The notes below the pieces were generated by a model. That model was not told the DNA's origin, ran no database searches, and was given only the letters and a program-made list of their open reading frames with translations. A stretch of 64,000 nt of DNA from Natronomonas salsuginis (GTDB taxonomy: Archaea; Halobacteriota; Halobacteria; Halobacteriales; Haloarculaceae), in NCBI RefSeq assembly GCF_005239135.1, contig NZ_QKNX01000003.1, forward strand, positions 62,001 through 126,000. Reading direction: 5' to 3'. The first letter of the stretch is position 1. The number at the start of each line of letters is the position of its first letter. Below, piece after piece: positions 40,159 to 63,722 of this stretch. A program made the position numbers and the translations under genes.

Positions 40159-41727
40159 ATGGCATACGACGGGCCGACAGTCTTCCTCGCGCCGTACGGG
40201 AACGCCGCCGCGCAGGAAAACTTTCAGCGAACCGTTCTCGATGGGCTTTCGGGATCCGAAGTCGCGGCCTACTCGGATTCACATTCGTCCGGAGACACCG
40301 TTCGCATGTGGGGTACGAAGGAGACGGTTTCGGGGACGTGGCGGCAGATCGATCCCGGCGACTACCTCCTGTTTTATAAAGACGGTGGCTACGATCACGC
40401 CGCCGAAGTCATCTCGACCGAGCGAAACGAATCGCTCGGCCGAGCGGTGTGGCCGAATCACGAAGAGGGAAAACCGTGGGTCTGTATCATCTATTTAAAA
40501 GAGCCGATCGAGACAAACATCGACTCCGAAGAGATCCACGGTCTCGCCGGCCACGATATCTCCTATACGATGGGGTTCAGTTCGCTGAACGACCTCGGAC
40601 TCGGTGGCATCCGCGGACGGTACGGTTCCGTCGAGAACCTCGTTCACGGACGCCCGGCCGCCAGCGATCGATCGACGGAACAGGCGACGCTCGACGGCGG
40701 CCCAGAGCCGGATATATATACGGAGCCGTCGATCGATCTGCCGGCTGAAACATTCGATTCGCTGTATTTCCACGACGAGCAACGCGAGGAACTGATCGAA
40801 TCGATAACGGCCGCGTTGAACGCAGGAAAACACCTCATATTCACCGGCCCACCCGGAACGGGAAAGACCGAAATCGCCCGGCAGCTCTGTTCGTATTTAA
40901 ATACTGAATATCCGCATATATATACCGGACAGCAGCTCACGACCGCGACGGCGGATTGGTCGACGTTCGAGACGGTCGGCGGGTACATGCCGGGCGAATC
41001 CGACGGGGAGAACCTCTCGTTCGAGCCCGGACAGGTCCTGCGACGGTTTAAAAAGGAACGTACGCAGCGGAACGAACTGCTCGTCATCGACGAGATCAAC
41101 CGCGCCGATATCGACAAGTCGTTCGGCCAGCTGTTCACCCTCTTATCGGGGCAGGCCGTCCAGTTGCCGTACCGACGCGACGGCGAGGAAATCGAGGTCG
41201 TTCCGGCGTCCGATTTCGACGGGCAACTGGCACCCAACCGATACGTCGTCCCCGCTTCGTGGCGGATTTTCGCGACGATGAACTCCTACGACAAGACCTC
41301 CCTCTACGAACTCTCGTACGCGTTCATGCGTCGGTTCGCGTTCATCCACGTCGACGCGCCCGAAATCCCGCCCGGACGCGAGGAAAGCAGTGAACTCGTT
41401 CGATCGTACGCAGACGTGTGGGGAATCGACGCCAACGACGACACGCTTCGGGACGTAGGGGAGATCTGGTTCGCGGTCAACGCGACGGAAAACGGACGCA
41501 ATATCGGACCCGCGATAATCAAAGACATTCTGTCGCACGTCAACGGACGAGAGATCGACCGACGAGCCGCCCTCTCCGGTGCCGTCGCGAGCTACGTGTT
41601 CCCGCAGTTGGAAGGTGTGCCGAACAGAGGCCAGATCGTTTCGCGAATCGCCCATACGGACGTGGTCGATCGCGGGCGGTTGGGTCGATTGGCCGGTGAC
41701 GTTCTCGGTGTGACCGTCGATGGATAG
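40159..41727 (+). CDS. McrB-like AAA+ GTPase/ATPase with N-terminal PUA/EVE-like reader domain
   Basis: A 522-residue protein. Residues 1-~165 have the pattern of a PUA-like EVE/YTH domain (VRMWGTKETV...WRQIDPGDYLLFYKDG...AVWPN), which binds modified bases. The motor has Walker A GPPGTGKTE (near 229), Walker B LLVIDEINRADIDKSFGQL (near 310) and an McrB-type MNSYDKT loop (near 373) followed by MRRF. McrB hexamers drive the McrC nuclease on modified DNA. It overlaps mcrC by eight bases. Several A/T-only words (40372, 40492, 40712, 40894, 40916) stand out in its codon use. Confidence 0.85.
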   Translation: MAYDGPTVFLAPYGNAAAQENFQRTVLDGLSGSEVAAYSDSHSSGDTVRMWGTKETVSGTWRQIDPGDYLLFYKDGGYDHAAEVISTERNESLGRAVWPNHEEGKPWVCIIYLKEPIETNIDSEEIHGLAGHDISYTMGFSSLNDLGLGGIRGRYGSVENLVHGRPAASDRSTEQATLDGGPEPDIYTEPSIDLPAETFDSLYFHDEQREELIESITAALNAGKHLIFTGPPGTGKTEIARQLCSYLNTEYPHIYTGQQLTTATADWSTFETVGGYMPGESDGENLSFEPGQVLRRFKKERTQRNELLVIDEINRADIDKSFGQLFTLLSGQAVQLPYRRDGEEIEVVPASDFDGQLAPNRYVVPASWRIFATMNSYDKTSLYELSYAFMRRFAFIHVDAPEIPPGREESSELVRSYADVWGIDANDDTLRDVGEIWFAVNATENGRNIGPAIIKDILSHVNGREIDRRAALSGAVASYVFPQLEGVPNRGQIVSRIAHTDVVDRGRLGRLAGDVLGVTVDG

Positions 41728-43066
41728 AGACGAACTCGTCGCCGGGCTCTCACAGGACATCCTTACGTACGTGATGCACGGCTCGTTTCCCGAAAACCAC
41801 GTCGCGGCAGAACTCAAACCGAACGGGCTCGACGAGCGCTTCGACGATTTCGAGTCGCTCGTTCGGCTGCACTTCATACTCAAGCCGGGCGTCGTCGACT
41901 TCGTCGAAGCGCTCCCGAAGCGGCTCCGGAACATCAAGACGGGGACCGAGACGACCACGACGGTCTCTCGGGGGAGCGTTTCCGGTCGAATAGACTGGCC
42001 ATCGACGGTGAAACAGCGCTACTCCACGAACCCGCACAATCGCGCGCTGTTCGTCTGCGACGACCGATCCGAGAGCTACGAGATCGCCGAGAACATCGTG
42101 TTGAAGCGGCTGCTCTCGGTCATTTATAACACGTTGGACGACTGTGAGGCGTATCTCCGGGCGGACTACGAGTGGGTGACCCATCGGTGGCGCGAAAACC
42201 TCGAACTCGTCGATGTCATGCGCCGGACGTTCGAGCGGAACGTCCACGTCAAACGAATTCGCGATCCGGAAACGTACGAGCCGACGGATCGGATGTTACA
42301 GCGAGCCGAGACGGCGCGAACGCCTTTATATACCGACGCGGCGGCGCTGCTTCGGTCGTATCGGGATAGCCTCGACGCCGATCGGGAGGCCATGACCGAA
42401 CTGCTTGAACAGACGGCGATCACGCCGGACGACGAGGAGACGCTCTTGGAGCTCTACGTCCTCTTTCGATTCGTCGCCGCGATCGAATCGCTTCGCGAGG
42501 AGTCGTTCACCCTCTCGACGATCGTCTCGGACTCACAGGCGATCGCCCGGATGGTCGACGACGACGCCGAGATAACGCTGTATCACGACAACTCCGCGAG
42601 AGAACGAGGGCTCTCGTTCGTCCCGGAAAACTTCGAAAAGGAGCGGACTGACCTCACGCGAAGCGAGATGGTCCAACGCGAGACCCGTGAAGTGCTCTCT
42701 ACGTATTTCGAGAACGACGAGTTCCGCCGAACGACCGGACGACCAGACGTCATCGTCCTCGAAATTGACGCCGACGGTCGGCAGGAGTACCTCATAACCG
42801 AGATCAAGAACTCGACGAACCCACAGACGATCCGGTCGGGGATCAAAGAGACGCTCGAATACCTCGCGTTCCTGCGGCAGAACGGCGAGTTCGTCTTCGA
42901 AGACGACACCGCGTACTTCGGCTCCGGCTGGAACGGGCTGCTCGTCGTGCAGGACATCGAGGAGTCCCAAACGGCGGCGCTCGACGAACAGCGTTCGATC
43001 CGGATTCTCCAAGCGTCCGAGGTCGAGTCGAAACTGCGGACGGTCCTCGAATCGGTCGTGAACTGA
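41720..43066 (+). CDS. McrC-like nuclease subunit, PD-(D/E)xK type
   Basis: A 448-residue protein. The N-terminal ~300 residues are helical and beta-rich and resemble McrC/DUF2357 proteins. The C-terminal nuclease site is visible as GRPDVIVLE (near 339) followed by YLITEIKNS (near 360), the D...ExK signature. With the McrB-like protein it forms a modification-dependent (type IV) restriction system. The start overlaps the mcrB end by eight bases. The stop at 43064-43066 is five bases from a restriction-enzyme stub. Confidence 0.8.
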   Translation: MDRDELVAGLSQDILTYVMHGSFPENHVAAELKPNGLDERFDDFESLVRLHFILKPGVVDFVEALPKRLRNIKTGTETTTTVSRGSVSGRIDWPSTVKQRYSTNPHNRALFVCDDRSESYEIAENIVLKRLLSVIYNTLDDCEAYLRADYEWVTHRWRENLELVDVMRRTFERNVHVKRIRDPETYEPTDRMLQRAETARTPLYTDAAALLRSYRDSLDADREAMTELLEQTAITPDDEETLLELYVLFRFVAAIESLREESFTLSTIVSDSQAIARMVDDDAEITLYHDNSARERGLSFVPENFEKERTDLTRSEMVQRETREVLSTYFENDEFRRTTGRPDVIVLEIDADGRQEYLITEIKNSTNPQTIRSGIKETLEYLAFLRQNGEFVFEDDTAYFGSGWNGLLVVQDIEESQTAALDEQRSIRILQASEVESKLRTVLESVVN

Positions 43067-43070
43067 TCGA

Positions 43071-43364
43071 GCGCTTATAAACGCCTTCGTCCCCCACGCC
43101 GTCGACGAGGCCGGCGGCTTCGCGGGCTTTCGGGAGACGGCGACGAAGACGAACTCGCTGGTGGATCGCCTCGAAGCGCTGACGCTGCCGCGGCTCGCGG
43201 ACGTGGCGGACGGGCTGGAACGGTATATAAATGCCGTCGAGCGCGCCGAGGAGCTGGAGGCGAAGATCGAAAAGACCGATCGGTTGATCGACGAGATCGT
43301 TTATGAATTGTACGGGCTGACGGACGAGGAGATCGCGATCGTCGAGGAAGCGGTCGGGGAGTAA
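43071..43364 (+). pseudogene. C-terminal stub of a type IIG-like restriction-modification enzyme
   Basis: The frame from 43071 reads as protein without an upstream start (INAFVPHAVDEAGGFAGFRE, then TKTNSLVDRL, and DEIVYELYGLTDEEIAIVEE to the stop). The ending with YELYGLTEEEIxIVE is the usual C-terminus of Eco57I/type IIG methylase-nucleases and related large modification enzymes. About 98 codons remain. A GTG at 43161 could start a 67-residue piece, but loss of the rest makes it a remnant. It abuts the mcrC stop, which marks a replacement junction. Confidence 0.7.
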
Positions 43365-43367
43365 CAT

Positions 43368-43522
43368 CCGCGCGAGCGAAGTGAGCGCGGTTCTCCGAGC
43401 TGAACCCGATGTGGTTCGAAAGACCGCAGGGCAGTCTTTCGTCATTGCCGGACACGGTCCGGCAAGCAGCCAGAACGCAGAGCGTTCTGGCCACATCACG
43501 AGAGAGTGCATACGCTCTCTCG
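43368..43522. ncRNA. cloverleaf-like multi-hairpin element
   Basis: A closing stem GATGTGG/CCACATC (43408-43414 with 43491-43497) encloses three perfect hairpins: CGAAAGAC/GTCTTTCG (43417-43441), TTGCCGGAC/GTCCGGCAA (43445-43465) and CCAGAACGC/GCGTTCTGG (43470-43490). Flanking hairpins are CCGCGC/GCGCGG (43368-43390), GGTTC/GAACC (43389-43406) and CGAGAGAGTG/CGCTCTCTCG (43499-43522). Joints are only 0-4 bases, giving a compact four-way junction. It is not a tRNA: no anticodon arm, no T-loop. It may be a structured RNA or a palindromic mobile unit. Confidence 0.55.
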
Positions 43523-44230
43523 AACGACAAAAAGTCGGGAGGGCACTGTCTGGTTGAGCACCGCCTCAACGGGCGTTTGATTATCTGGCGCTTGATTCGG
43601 CCGATCGTGATTGTAGTAGTGGCGAAAGCGGCGTACCCAGCGTCGGGCGCTCGATTGACTGCCCCGCGAAAAGGAGTGAAAGCGGTCGATTCGCATCGAT
43701 ACTGTCTGGAACCACTTTTCGATGTGGTTCCGCTCTGTGTAGTTGAGCTGACCGCTCAAATCGTGTTGAAAGAGGGCAGTCAGATACCCACCAGCATCGA
43801 CCAGGAATTCGGTGTCCGAAACGTCATGTTTCTCGGTTAACTGATGCAAGAACGCTGCCGCGGGACCGATCCCGCGGCGGCTGTATACGTCGATTTCAAG
43901 CAGTAACTTCGACCCCGTATCGATCGCCGCATACAGCCACTGTTTCTCACCATCAATCTCGATTTGTTTCTCGTCGACGGCAACCCGCGACGGCTCCGCC
44001 GTCGGCGGGTCGCCCTGCGATTCAGCGAGATCGTGTGTCCAATTCCAGACCGCTCCGTGAGAGCGATTAACGCCGAGTAACCCTAACACGGCGGCCACCT
44101 CCCGTACCGACAACCCCATTGAATGGAGCCGGACCCCGAACACCCTGACGGGTGTCGGGGTCGGCTCATTCTCCCAAACCTCATCACAATCCACGTCTAA
44201 CGTCTCCCTGAGCAGGTTTGCGAGTGTCAT
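43496..44230 (-). CDS. IS6-family DDE transposase
   Basis: A 244-residue transposase from ATG 44230 (MTLANLLRETLD). The DDE residues are visible in RVAVDEKQIEIDG, FLVDAGGYLTALF and RNHIEKWFQTVSMRIDRF. An N-terminal HTH region (GLSVREVAAVLGLLG) precedes them. The frame reads through the terminal inverted repeat (NQTVP) and its last 14 codons come from flanking DNA, inside the hairpin at 43499. Whether the altered tail matters is unknown. Confidence 0.85.
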   Translation of the reverse strand: MTLANLLRETLDVDCDEVWENEPTPTPVRVFGVRLHSMGLSVREVAAVLGLLGVNRSHGAVWNWTHDLAESQGDPPTAEPSRVAVDEKQIEIDGEKQWLYAAIDTGSKLLLEIDVYSRRGIGPAAAFLHQLTEKHDVSDTEFLVDAGGYLTALFQHDLSGQLNYTERNHIEKWFQTVSMRIDRFHSFSRGSQSSARRWVRRFRHYYNHDRPNQAPDNQTPVEAVLNQTVPSRLFVVRESVCTLS

Positions 44231-44285
44231 GGACACCACTCACTACGACCTGCTCGCTTCTCAAACTCCCTGAACTAGACAGTGC
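43543..44285 (-). mobile_element. IS6-family insertion sequence (ISH type)
   Basis: Terminal inverted repeats are GCACTGTCTGGTTGA (43543-43557) and the complement of 44271-44285 (GCACTGTCTAGTTCA), 13 of 15 matching. Length is 743 bp, usual for haloarchaeal IS6 elements. The 8-base flanks (TCGGGAGG and AACGTTAT) do not match, so no target duplication is seen. That fits either a rearrangement after replicative transposition or an old insertion. Confidence 0.8.
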
Positions 44286-44316: not shown

Positions 44317-46482
44317 TTAATTCCCCTTCGACTCCGTGAACGCTGTCAGCTCTGGCACCCGTGTCTCCGAGAGCTCCCGACGGAGGTCTGATCGGGTCCA
44401 GCCTAACGGTGAGAGAACGCTCTCGACAGCTCTGATGAGTTCCGTCTCGTAGTAGTCCGGATCGTACATCTCGACTTCCTCGTGAGCCAATGCGACCCGC
44501 TCTCGCGAGGTCTTCCGATCGTCGACGACGACGTACTCGATGTCCTGTCCCGGATGGACGGCGAGGTTCTGGTCACGAGCGCGCTTCAGCGCCGCCACGT
44601 TCTGCGTGTTTTGGGTGTAGCCCTCGAGTGGTTTGGATACACGATTCCGTTCGACGAGCTGCTCAATCGGGACCTGACCAGCGTGTAGCTGGTCGATTGC
44701 ATCCTGAAGACGTCCGAGTACCGCGTCCGGTGACCGCGTGGCATCGAGCCGGTCGAGACAGTCTCGCTGGACATCCTCGGTGAACGGCGGGGTCGAACGC
44801 TGCCGGGCTTCGATACCTCTGATCTTGAAGTCGTCGTCGCCGGCGACCTTCCCGAAGTACTTCGTCAGCGCGCCGGAGTCGCTCTCACGCTGCGGGACGA
44901 ACGCCACCCAGTCGTAGTGCGCCTCGTGTTCGAGTCGAATCTCGACGCGTTCCGTGATCTCCGTCGCGAGCGTCCCGAGGTCCTCGCGGTCCTCGTCGTC
45001 GACGTCAGGGTCCGGGGTCACCCAGATGGAGTCGACGATGCCGTGGACGACGCGCCAGCCGCCGGCTTCCAGCCGTTGTTTCGCCGTCAGCAGAATTTCG
45101 CGAGCGAACGCGTTGATCGCCTCGTGGCACTCGATGCGGCCGAACTTCGCGTTGCTGAACCCTTGATACCCGAAGCAGGCGACGAGGATCCACTTCAACG
45201 CTCCCGACCGCCCCTCGAGTTCCGCCAGTCGGTCCTCGTCGGGGCCGTCCCGTTCCTTCTCGCGCCGGATGGCCGCCTTGATCTCGTCGCGTGCGTCGAT
45301 GATCGGCTGTAGCACGTCGACGAGGTAGCCCCGATCGTCGCAGATCGAGTACCCGAGGCCGGGGACGTCGTCGCGGTCGCTGTGGCAGTCACACCGGATG
45401 ACGTCCGGCGAGACGTTCCGGGTACAGATGATGTTCGGGTACAACGAGGAGAAGTCGAGTTCGTGGACGTTCTCGTGGAGGCCGACCTCGGGGGCGAAGA
45501 TGAAGCCGCCGCGGTCGGCGTCGTGGAGCGTCCCCATCGGTTTGTAGAACTCGTGGCGCCAAGAGTTCCAGGGGACGAGAACCCCGCGGTCGTGGGCCTC
45601 GCAGATCTGGATCGCCGTGAGCACGTTCCCGATCGACGCCCACGCGAGCTCCTGGACGGGCTTGTTCGAGCGCGACACGAGGTCGAGGACGCCGTCGAGG
45701 TTCGTTTCCCCGTAGAAGAACGTGTTCGACTCGTCGATGATCGCCCGACCGGGCACGTTGTACCGCGCCGGTGAGTGGCCGACGCGACCGTAGCTCGAGT
45801 AGGTCGACCGGCTCGCGAGCTGCTGGTAGTCGACGTCCGGCCACCGACTCATCGAGAAGTCGTCGACGCCGGCGTCCGTCGCCATCTCGTGGAGGGTCGG
45901 GACGATCTCGTTCGTCGAGCAGACCAGGACATCCGGATCGTGTGCGTCGAGCGCCCCTTGGACGGCGGTCAGGATATCCGTCGGCGAGCCGGTGACGGCG
46001 TCGCCGCCGACGGACAGTTTCTCGTAGACGTCGTTGCTCGTTTCGGTCACCGGAACGCTGAGCCGGAATGTCGACAGCTCGCTCGCCGGCGTCGGATCGG
46101 CGTCTGTCTCCAGACAGTATCGGAACTCTCGCGAGAAGTCGACGTTGAAACAGGCGAGATCCCCGACTGGATAGTCCGACAGCTGGCGTGCCTGCCGGGC
46201 GAGTGGGGTGACGCGGTCGATGTGGGCGACGTCGACGGCGAGAACGGCCTCCTCGTCGCGACGGAATCCGGGGCGACGCCTCACCATCTCGGTCGCGACG
46301 ACGTCGGGATGTTGGTCGTAGATCGACTGGAGCGCAGTAAGATCGATATCTGCGTCAGGGTCTCGAGCAGCGACGTAGAAACGTGGCGTGTAGTCGTCGT
46401 GTTCGGTTGCGACGGCGCCGCCGCCGGTGGCATCCCACTCGATAATGCGCCCGTCGTCCAAGAAGTCGATAGTGAACGGCAT
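44317..46482 (-). CDS. polB2: family B DNA polymerase (PolB2 type of mobile elements)
   Basis: A 721-residue polymerase. Motif A is ELDFSSLYPNII (near 344), motif B is LKWILVACFGYQGFSNA (near 445), and motif C is VVHGIVDSIWV (near 480), where the usual D-T-D is I-V-D, keeping only the second Asp. The N-terminal half lacks clear exonuclease DxE motifs. Such PolB2 proteins occur in haloarchaeal plasmids and proviruses. It is the last gene of a three-gene operon with 46485 and 46794. Confidence 0.88.
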   Translation of the reverse strand: MPFTIDFLDDGRIIEWDATGGGAVATEHDDYTPRFYVAARDPDADIDLTALQSIYDQHPDVVATEMVRRRPGFRRDEEAVLAVDVAHIDRVTPLARQARQLSDYPVGDLACFNVDFSREFRYCLETDADPTPASELSTFRLSVPVTETSNDVYEKLSVGGDAVTGSPTDILTAVQGALDAHDPDVLVCSTNEIVPTLHEMATDAGVDDFSMSRWPDVDYQQLASRSTYSSYGRVGHSPARYNVPGRAIIDESNTFFYGETNLDGVLDLVSRSNKPVQELAWASIGNVLTAIQICEAHDRGVLVPWNSWRHEFYKPMGTLHDADRGGFIFAPEVGLHENVHELDFSSLYPNIICTRNVSPDVIRCDCHSDRDDVPGLGYSICDDRGYLVDVLQPIIDARDEIKAAIRREKERDGPDEDRLAELEGRSGALKWILVACFGYQGFSNAKFGRIECHEAINAFAREILLTAKQRLEAGGWRVVHGIVDSIWVTPDPDVDDEDREDLGTLATEITERVEIRLEHEAHYDWVAFVPQRESDSGALTKYFGKVAGDDDFKIRGIEARQRSTPPFTEDVQRDCLDRLDATRSPDAVLGRLQDAIDQLHAGQVPIEQLVERNRVSKPLEGYTQNTQNVAALKRARDQNLAVHPGQDIEYVVVDDRKTSRERVALAHEEVEMYDPDYYETELIRAVESVLSPLGWTRSDLRRELSETRVPELTAFTESKGN

Positions 46483-63560: not shown

Positions 63561-63722
63561 AGTAGAAACCTCGTTAGTTGGCGAGCGGTCGAATTTCTCG
63601 ACCAGCCGCCTCTCGGCGACTTACTCTATCCTCTGCCGCATCGGAGTTCGGCATGGTTGTACGTCGTCAGTCGACACGGACGTTCATTAACCTGCTGATT
63701 GCGCGCTCGCCGCCGAGCGCGA

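Follow-up and report, generated by a model that had tools for sequence, protein, structure and literature searches.

The locus raises the question of what a tight cluster of hairpins, directly beside an IS6-family element, represents in the genome of Natronomonas salsuginis: a folded RNA, a mobile palindrome or an accident of GC-rich sequence. The DNA analysed was a stretch of 64,000 nucleotides (hereafter, the window), in which an earlier note had described a seven-pair closing stem enclosing several hairpins as a cloverleaf-like junction, offering a structured RNA, a palindromic mobile unit or a recombination hot spot attractive to the IS6 element as possible readings. The features finally delimited, in window coordinates, were the following:

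43368-43390, CCGCGCGAGCGAAGTGAGCGCGG hairpin upstream, belonging to a different repeat that is very common in haloarchaea
43389-43406, upstream hairpin GGTTC...GAACC, outside the element
43405-43411, left target flank CCCGATG, with a terminal G as in 81 of 87 junctions
43412-43527, whole composite palindromic element, 116 bp, ends TGGTTCGAAA...TCTCGAACGA, delimited from 87 junctions and from occupied and empty framework repeats in genome G303
43412-43442, left part of the outer unit, inverted end TGGTTCGA followed by H1
43417-43441, hairpin H1, 8 bp stem, read from the sequence
43443-43493, inner two-hairpin unit, 51 bp, located between H1 and H4
43445-43465, hairpin H2, 9 bp stem, loop ACG... 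(TTGCCGGACacgGTCCGGCAA)
43469-43491, hairpin H3, 10 bp stem (GCCAGAACGCagaGCGTTCTGGC)
43494-43527, right part of the outer unit, H4 followed by inverted end TCGAACGA
43499-43522, hairpin H4, 8-10 bp stem
43528-43539, right target flank CAAAAAGTCGGG, starting with CA, like 53 of the 87 junctions
43543-44285, minus strand, IS6-family element with inverted ends GCACTGTCTGGTTGAG and CTGAACTAGACAGTGC and a DDE_Tnp_IS240 transposase, outside the palindromic element

The hairpins reported in the earlier note were indeed present, comprising H1-H4 and the two flanking hairpins upstream, with fold z-scores of about -7 to -9. The region 43368-43522 folded at -81.8 kcal/mol as RNA (z -7.2) and at -50 as DNA (z -7.9), both values being unreached in 200 shuffles, while the 116 bp element by itself gave a z of -8.9 as DNA. 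The window contained 40 hairpins with a stem of at least 8 bp, compared to 14-25 in Markov-simulated sequence, and three of the 40 fell within 78 bp at the locus. The roughly twofold excess of such hairpins in haloarchaeal DNA over simulation speaks for a chance cluster in GC-rich sequence, but the fold z below -7 speaks against it, and the homologues conserved throughout the class, with change on both sides of the pairs, refute it, leaving this explanation a negligible probability. At the position of the upstream GGTTC...GAACC hairpin, several other copies (for example, at loci L081, L082, L078 and L086) had hairpins ending in ACC before CGACG. The CCGCGCGAGCGAAGTGAGCGCGG repeat was matched in many genomes at 89-96% over query bases 1-28 or 1-36, the remainder of the query being absent there, and had a second copy in the N. 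salsuginis genome.

An alignment of 21 copies revealed a difference between the four hairpins and the stem supposed to close the junction. Standard pairs filled 97.2% of the cells and two-sided change was observed in 24 of 40 pairs, while pairing fell to 35-48% when the partners were slid by one to three columns. In homologues, H1 was 95% paired with two-sided change in 7 of 11 pairs, H2 94% paired (7 of 10), H3 99.5% paired (8 of 10), and H4 was paired in 100% across the 21 copies. The closing pairing GATGTG(G)/(C)CACATC forms in the window copy, but was absent or broken in homologues, where it was 51.6% paired, without a single two-sided change and no better than in shuffles. The paired changes sought in every cloverleaf stem were thus found in the four hairpins and not in the closing stem, and the cloverleaf was rejected, since the stem forming the junction was neither conserved nor compensated.

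The kind of covariation proved as informative as its amount. When 70 distinct copies were compared, two or more Watson-Crick types occurred at 29 of the 40 stem pairs, and the stem cells included 2635 Watson-Crick pairs, 57 mismatches and 12 G-T pairs (0.5%); the alignment was fitted to a covariance model and leans towards pairing, a bias that does not explain the scarcity of G-T. An RNA helix is expected to tolerate G-U. Since G-T was rarer than mismatch, the constraint looks like that on DNA palindromes rather than on RNA helices. Furthermore, loop triplets were reverse-complemented between near-identical copies (TTC in L182, GAA in L184), which would fit either hairpin-templated copying or inversion. 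A structured non-coding RNA, i.e., a four-way junction with a cellular function and selected for its fold, would account for the very stable RNA fold and for the strong covariation of the four hairpins. It is, however, very improbable, given the excess of mismatches over G-T pairs, the unconserved junction stem, the presence of 2 to 6 hairpins per copy, the many copies per genome with changing places and orientations and the lack of an Rfam family at gathering score for the element, which produced sub-threshold chance matches only. The proposal of an unnamed structured RNA is not supported, given the nearly pure two-sided Watson-Crick change and the location of copies mostly between unrelated genes in either orientation. 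The sole Rfam match in the window was the leuA-Halobacteria RNA at 63588-63640 on the minus strand.

The distribution was followed with a covariance model, R2, built from the 21 copies, which matched the window copy at 43408-43531 with 111 bits. Matches were present in 364 of 391 haloarchaeal genomes sampled, covering 85 of the 86 genera of the class, the matches per genome being lower bounds and the weakest of them possibly due to chance. A second sample, taken from the phylum as a whole, had 53 matching genomes, all within the same order, and 242 genomes free of matches. The element occupied at least 49 separate places in genome G124 and at least 32 in G169, while the N. salsuginis genome had one good copy, that in the window, and a degenerate two-hairpin relative (contig C7, 42317-42444). 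The exact 21-mer of the H3 arm was found in 18 stretches, 17 of them haloarchaeal; the eighteenth came from an Enterobacteriaceae bin and lacked the other arms. Sequence search with the element retrieved copies of approximately 70-84% identity in the same family. According to a rough gene call around 33 copies, the location was mostly intergenic, with neither neighbors nor orientation constant. One exact pattern match was present in viruses (IMG/VR) and none in phage records, and literature searches by sequence and by terms recovered, within the library searched, no description of this palindromic family. The element is, therefore, shown to belong to a dispersed, gene-less DNA element family confined to haloarchaea among the sampled genomes.

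The copies differed in a regular way that revealed their modular construction. H1 and the reverse complement of H4 have GT(G/C)GTTCGARAG in common, and the inverted ends TGGTTCGA and TCGAACGA pair at 7 of 8 positions. The composite element apparently consists of a 65-base two-hairpin outer unit holding a 51-base two-hairpin inner unit. Among 99 distinct elements, the inner unit was absent in 24, which were two-hairpin outer units with the H1-H4 joint uninterrupted (CGTCATCACG or nearly so), while the H1-H4 interval had the length of one inner unit in 64, of two in 4 and other lengths in 7. Most copies with a single inner unit measured 109-123 bp. Because forms without and with one inner unit exist, we infer an origin by insertion for the inner unit in the window copy, similarly to a solitary unit in a tnpB gene described below.

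Exact ends were obtained from genome G303, in which a framework repeat recognizable by GGGACTCAAAGGGGC occurs in 89 exact copies. Four of 30 sampled framework repeats carried the element, and the rest continued without it, for example as GAGGAGCG/CAGCGAG in L202 (the slash marks the insertion point). The comparison of occupied with uninterrupted framework repeats placed the inverted ends at TGGTTCGARA...YTCGAACGA and the insertion at G/C, with no clear target duplication. Of the 87 junctions, 81 had a G on the left and 80 a C on the right, the C being followed most often by A. Targets inside a single genome, G169, were unrelated: AAGCACCG/CAG, CACCCTCG/CT and GAGGAGCG/CAGCGG. The cleanest insertion seen was that of an inner-kind unit alone in the 3' end of tnpB in Halobacterium sp. 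DL1, GAAGCCC[CATCACC...CTGACGA]CACCCTC, whose tnpB relatives read uninterrupted as GAAGCCCCACCCTC; they include Halorubrum lacusprofundi pR1SE2, which matches at 95.5% identity over the 201 bases leading up to the site. As judged from this comparison, the inner kind of unit is mobile, and its insertion may have produced a 2-base CA duplication. Palindromes formed by the joined flanks were in slight excess across the composite-element junctions (6.18 vs 5.91, sd 0.11), with clear single cases of the element at the loop edge of a hairpin in L132, L146 and L046; the joined flanks of the window copy give a small palindrome, CCCGATGCAAAAAGTCGGG, as read from the sequence. The orthologous pair L078/L079 was uninformative on the element alone, since L078 lacks the whole composite block of approximately 430 bp that bears the L079 element, and the flanks of the reciprocal locus were unalignable. 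Among the readings offered in the earlier note, the palindromic mobile unit was the one that gained support: its copies are dispersed, its sites occur both occupied and empty, and its ends are defined.

The GGGACTCAAAGGGGC framework itself, at L202-L231 and L171-L177 in G303, had a sequence-variable outer stem and downstream tandem units TTATAA..GCGGCTGGGGCTTTGGAGG, and looks like a large repeated structured element in its own right. It was absent from the N. salsuginis genome and produced no match in Rfam or in the literature. Another two-hairpin unit, CCAGAA...TTCTGGT..GC..ACGAGA...TCTCGTGAACGCC, was noticed in the N. salsuginis genome (L260, 1500-1660, contig C7) and in L009, L012 and L017, and recurred adjoining tnpB genes and elsewhere. 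In Halolamina salifodinae (L014 and L023), a related two-hairpin unit was in frame in two reading frames, one read as an isochorismate synthase-like and one as a cupin-like protein, coding for ESHSDS(G/S)GSQNAERSGD, which resembles the rickettsial palindromic elements in genes.

The IS6-family element lies 15 bases past the right end of the palindromic element; its 8-base flanks, TCGGGAGG and AACGTTAT, differ, and it has no target duplication of its own. Nothing in this single case links the two elements causally, and nothing favored a hot spot attracting the IS6 element. The frame of the IS6 transposase (43496-44239, minus strand) crosses the left inverted repeat, and H4 supplies its final residues as well as the stop codon. 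Directly past the IS6 element, a family B DNA polymerase of 721 aa is encoded (44317-46482, minus strand). On the other side, 40159-43364 comprises an AAA_5 ATPase (McrB-like), then a 448 aa partner without a Pfam match and finally a remnant of 67 aa that is similar to the C-terminal part of type IIG restriction-methylation enzymes.

Several known systems of small palindromic repeats have properties in common with the family. The closest are two, the bacterial REPINs and the small mobile repeats termed SMR-A (HqIRS42, 43 and 55) in Haloquadratum walsbyi. The mobilization of SMR-A was called enigmatic, and their main insertion sites reportedly are the near-terminal palindromes of PATEs and IS605-type transposons (PMC3119063). 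Like the present element, SMR-A are about 110 bp long, have inverted ends, no target duplication and no coding capacity, and occur in tens of copies per genome; they insert into other palindromic elements, as members of the present family did in single cases. In contrast, the tnpB site was seen here for an inner-kind unit, while the composite element was mostly in other repeats, and the class-wide distribution and nested two-hairpin modules observed here have no place in the SMR-A account (PMC3119063). The bacterial REPINs and BIMEs, associated with RAYT (TnpA_REP) transposases (PMC3116915, PMC2817692, PMC3733652), similarly pair two inverted hairpins that carry a short conserved tag at the bottom of the stem, which in the present family reads T(G/C)G or GT(G/C)G. 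They are likewise non-autonomous, mostly extragenic and arranged in mosaics; the present element differs in being archaeal, in the nesting of an inner unit inside the pair and in a tag other than GTAG. No RAYT/TnpA_REP was found, PF01797 being absent from the N. salsuginis and several copy-rich genomes, and the surveyed archaeal Y1 proteins belong to the IS200 subclass only (PMC6006769). The CGTC-tagged bacterial REPs (PMC3733652) are likewise palindromic and dispersed, form head-to-head dimers and have no known dedicated transposase, but they are bacterial, with loop lengths of 4-5 bases against mostly 3 here, and differ in tag and stem sequences. The haloarchaeal PATEs and IS605-type transposon ends also have near-end palindromes and no target duplication, and PATEs have no coding capacity (PMC3119063). 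The inverted terminal repeats of the present element, which are lacking in PATEs (PMC3119063), set it apart from an IS200/IS605-derived PATE. The family is comparable to SMR-A and REPINs and not a proven member of either, because the RAYT feature was not found and the comparison with SMR-A was one of published description.

The element is probably a palindromic insertion element of haloarchaea, neither coding nor autonomous, which would work in the same way as the Haloquadratum SMR-A and the bacterial REPINs. Its outer unit, with tagged ends, would be formed by the inverted hairpins H1 and H4, between which the inner unit (H2 and H3) would have been inserted. An enzyme supplied in trans that acts on the hairpins in single-stranded form may spread the copies. 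By analogy, the likeliest mechanism would be of the IS200/IS605-like HUH type, a tentative assignment, by itself somewhat less likely than not, suggested by the subterminal hairpins, the absence of target duplication, the short fixed target and the insertion into a tnpB transposon. A resident Y1 transposase as the mobilizer was rejected, since the presence of Y1 did not follow the copy number: Y1_Tnp (PF01797) was absent from the N. salsuginis genome and from G124, G125, G169, G150, G155, G159, G386 and G392, most of which are rich in copies, several of the Y1-free genomes being nearly complete and rich in near-identical ones. No gene of an autonomous partner was present between matching ends among 287 left ends examined, and a strand bias along G169, which would point to lagging-strand insertion, was not significant, the GC skew there being too weak to place the replichores. 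For these three reasons, the resemblance to IS200/IS605 is an analogy and not a finding.

A transposase-free spread by host replication and repair, through template switching at hairpins and gene conversion between repeats, agrees with the absence of Y1 from several copy-rich genomes, with the flanking framework repeats common to many copies and with the inverted loop triplets, which together with the near-perfect palindromes fit hairpin-templated copying. It hardly explains the identical ends in unrelated targets of G169 or the inner-kind unit sitting cleanly inside tnpB with no shared repeat around, and is unlikely as the whole explanation. Gene conversion between framework repeats could nevertheless be responsible for part of the spread, and both gene conversion and template switching are possible contributors to the dispersal of what is probably an insertion element. 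It is conceivable, if less likely than not, that what moves a class-wide miniature palindromic family with precise insertion and nesting without Y1 is an enzyme not yet described, or else the host's replication and repair at the hairpins.

For the recognition of such loci, the results mean that strong hairpin covariation alone is not evidence of RNA, and that the near absence of G-T pairs distinguishes a DNA palindrome. For the haloarchaea, small mobile repeats were known from one species, and a comparable family is now seen class-wide. The question of the mobilizer becomes testable through its exact ends, its short target (G/C, mostly before CA), the empty sites and nested forms, and the Y1-free genomes rich in near-identical copies.
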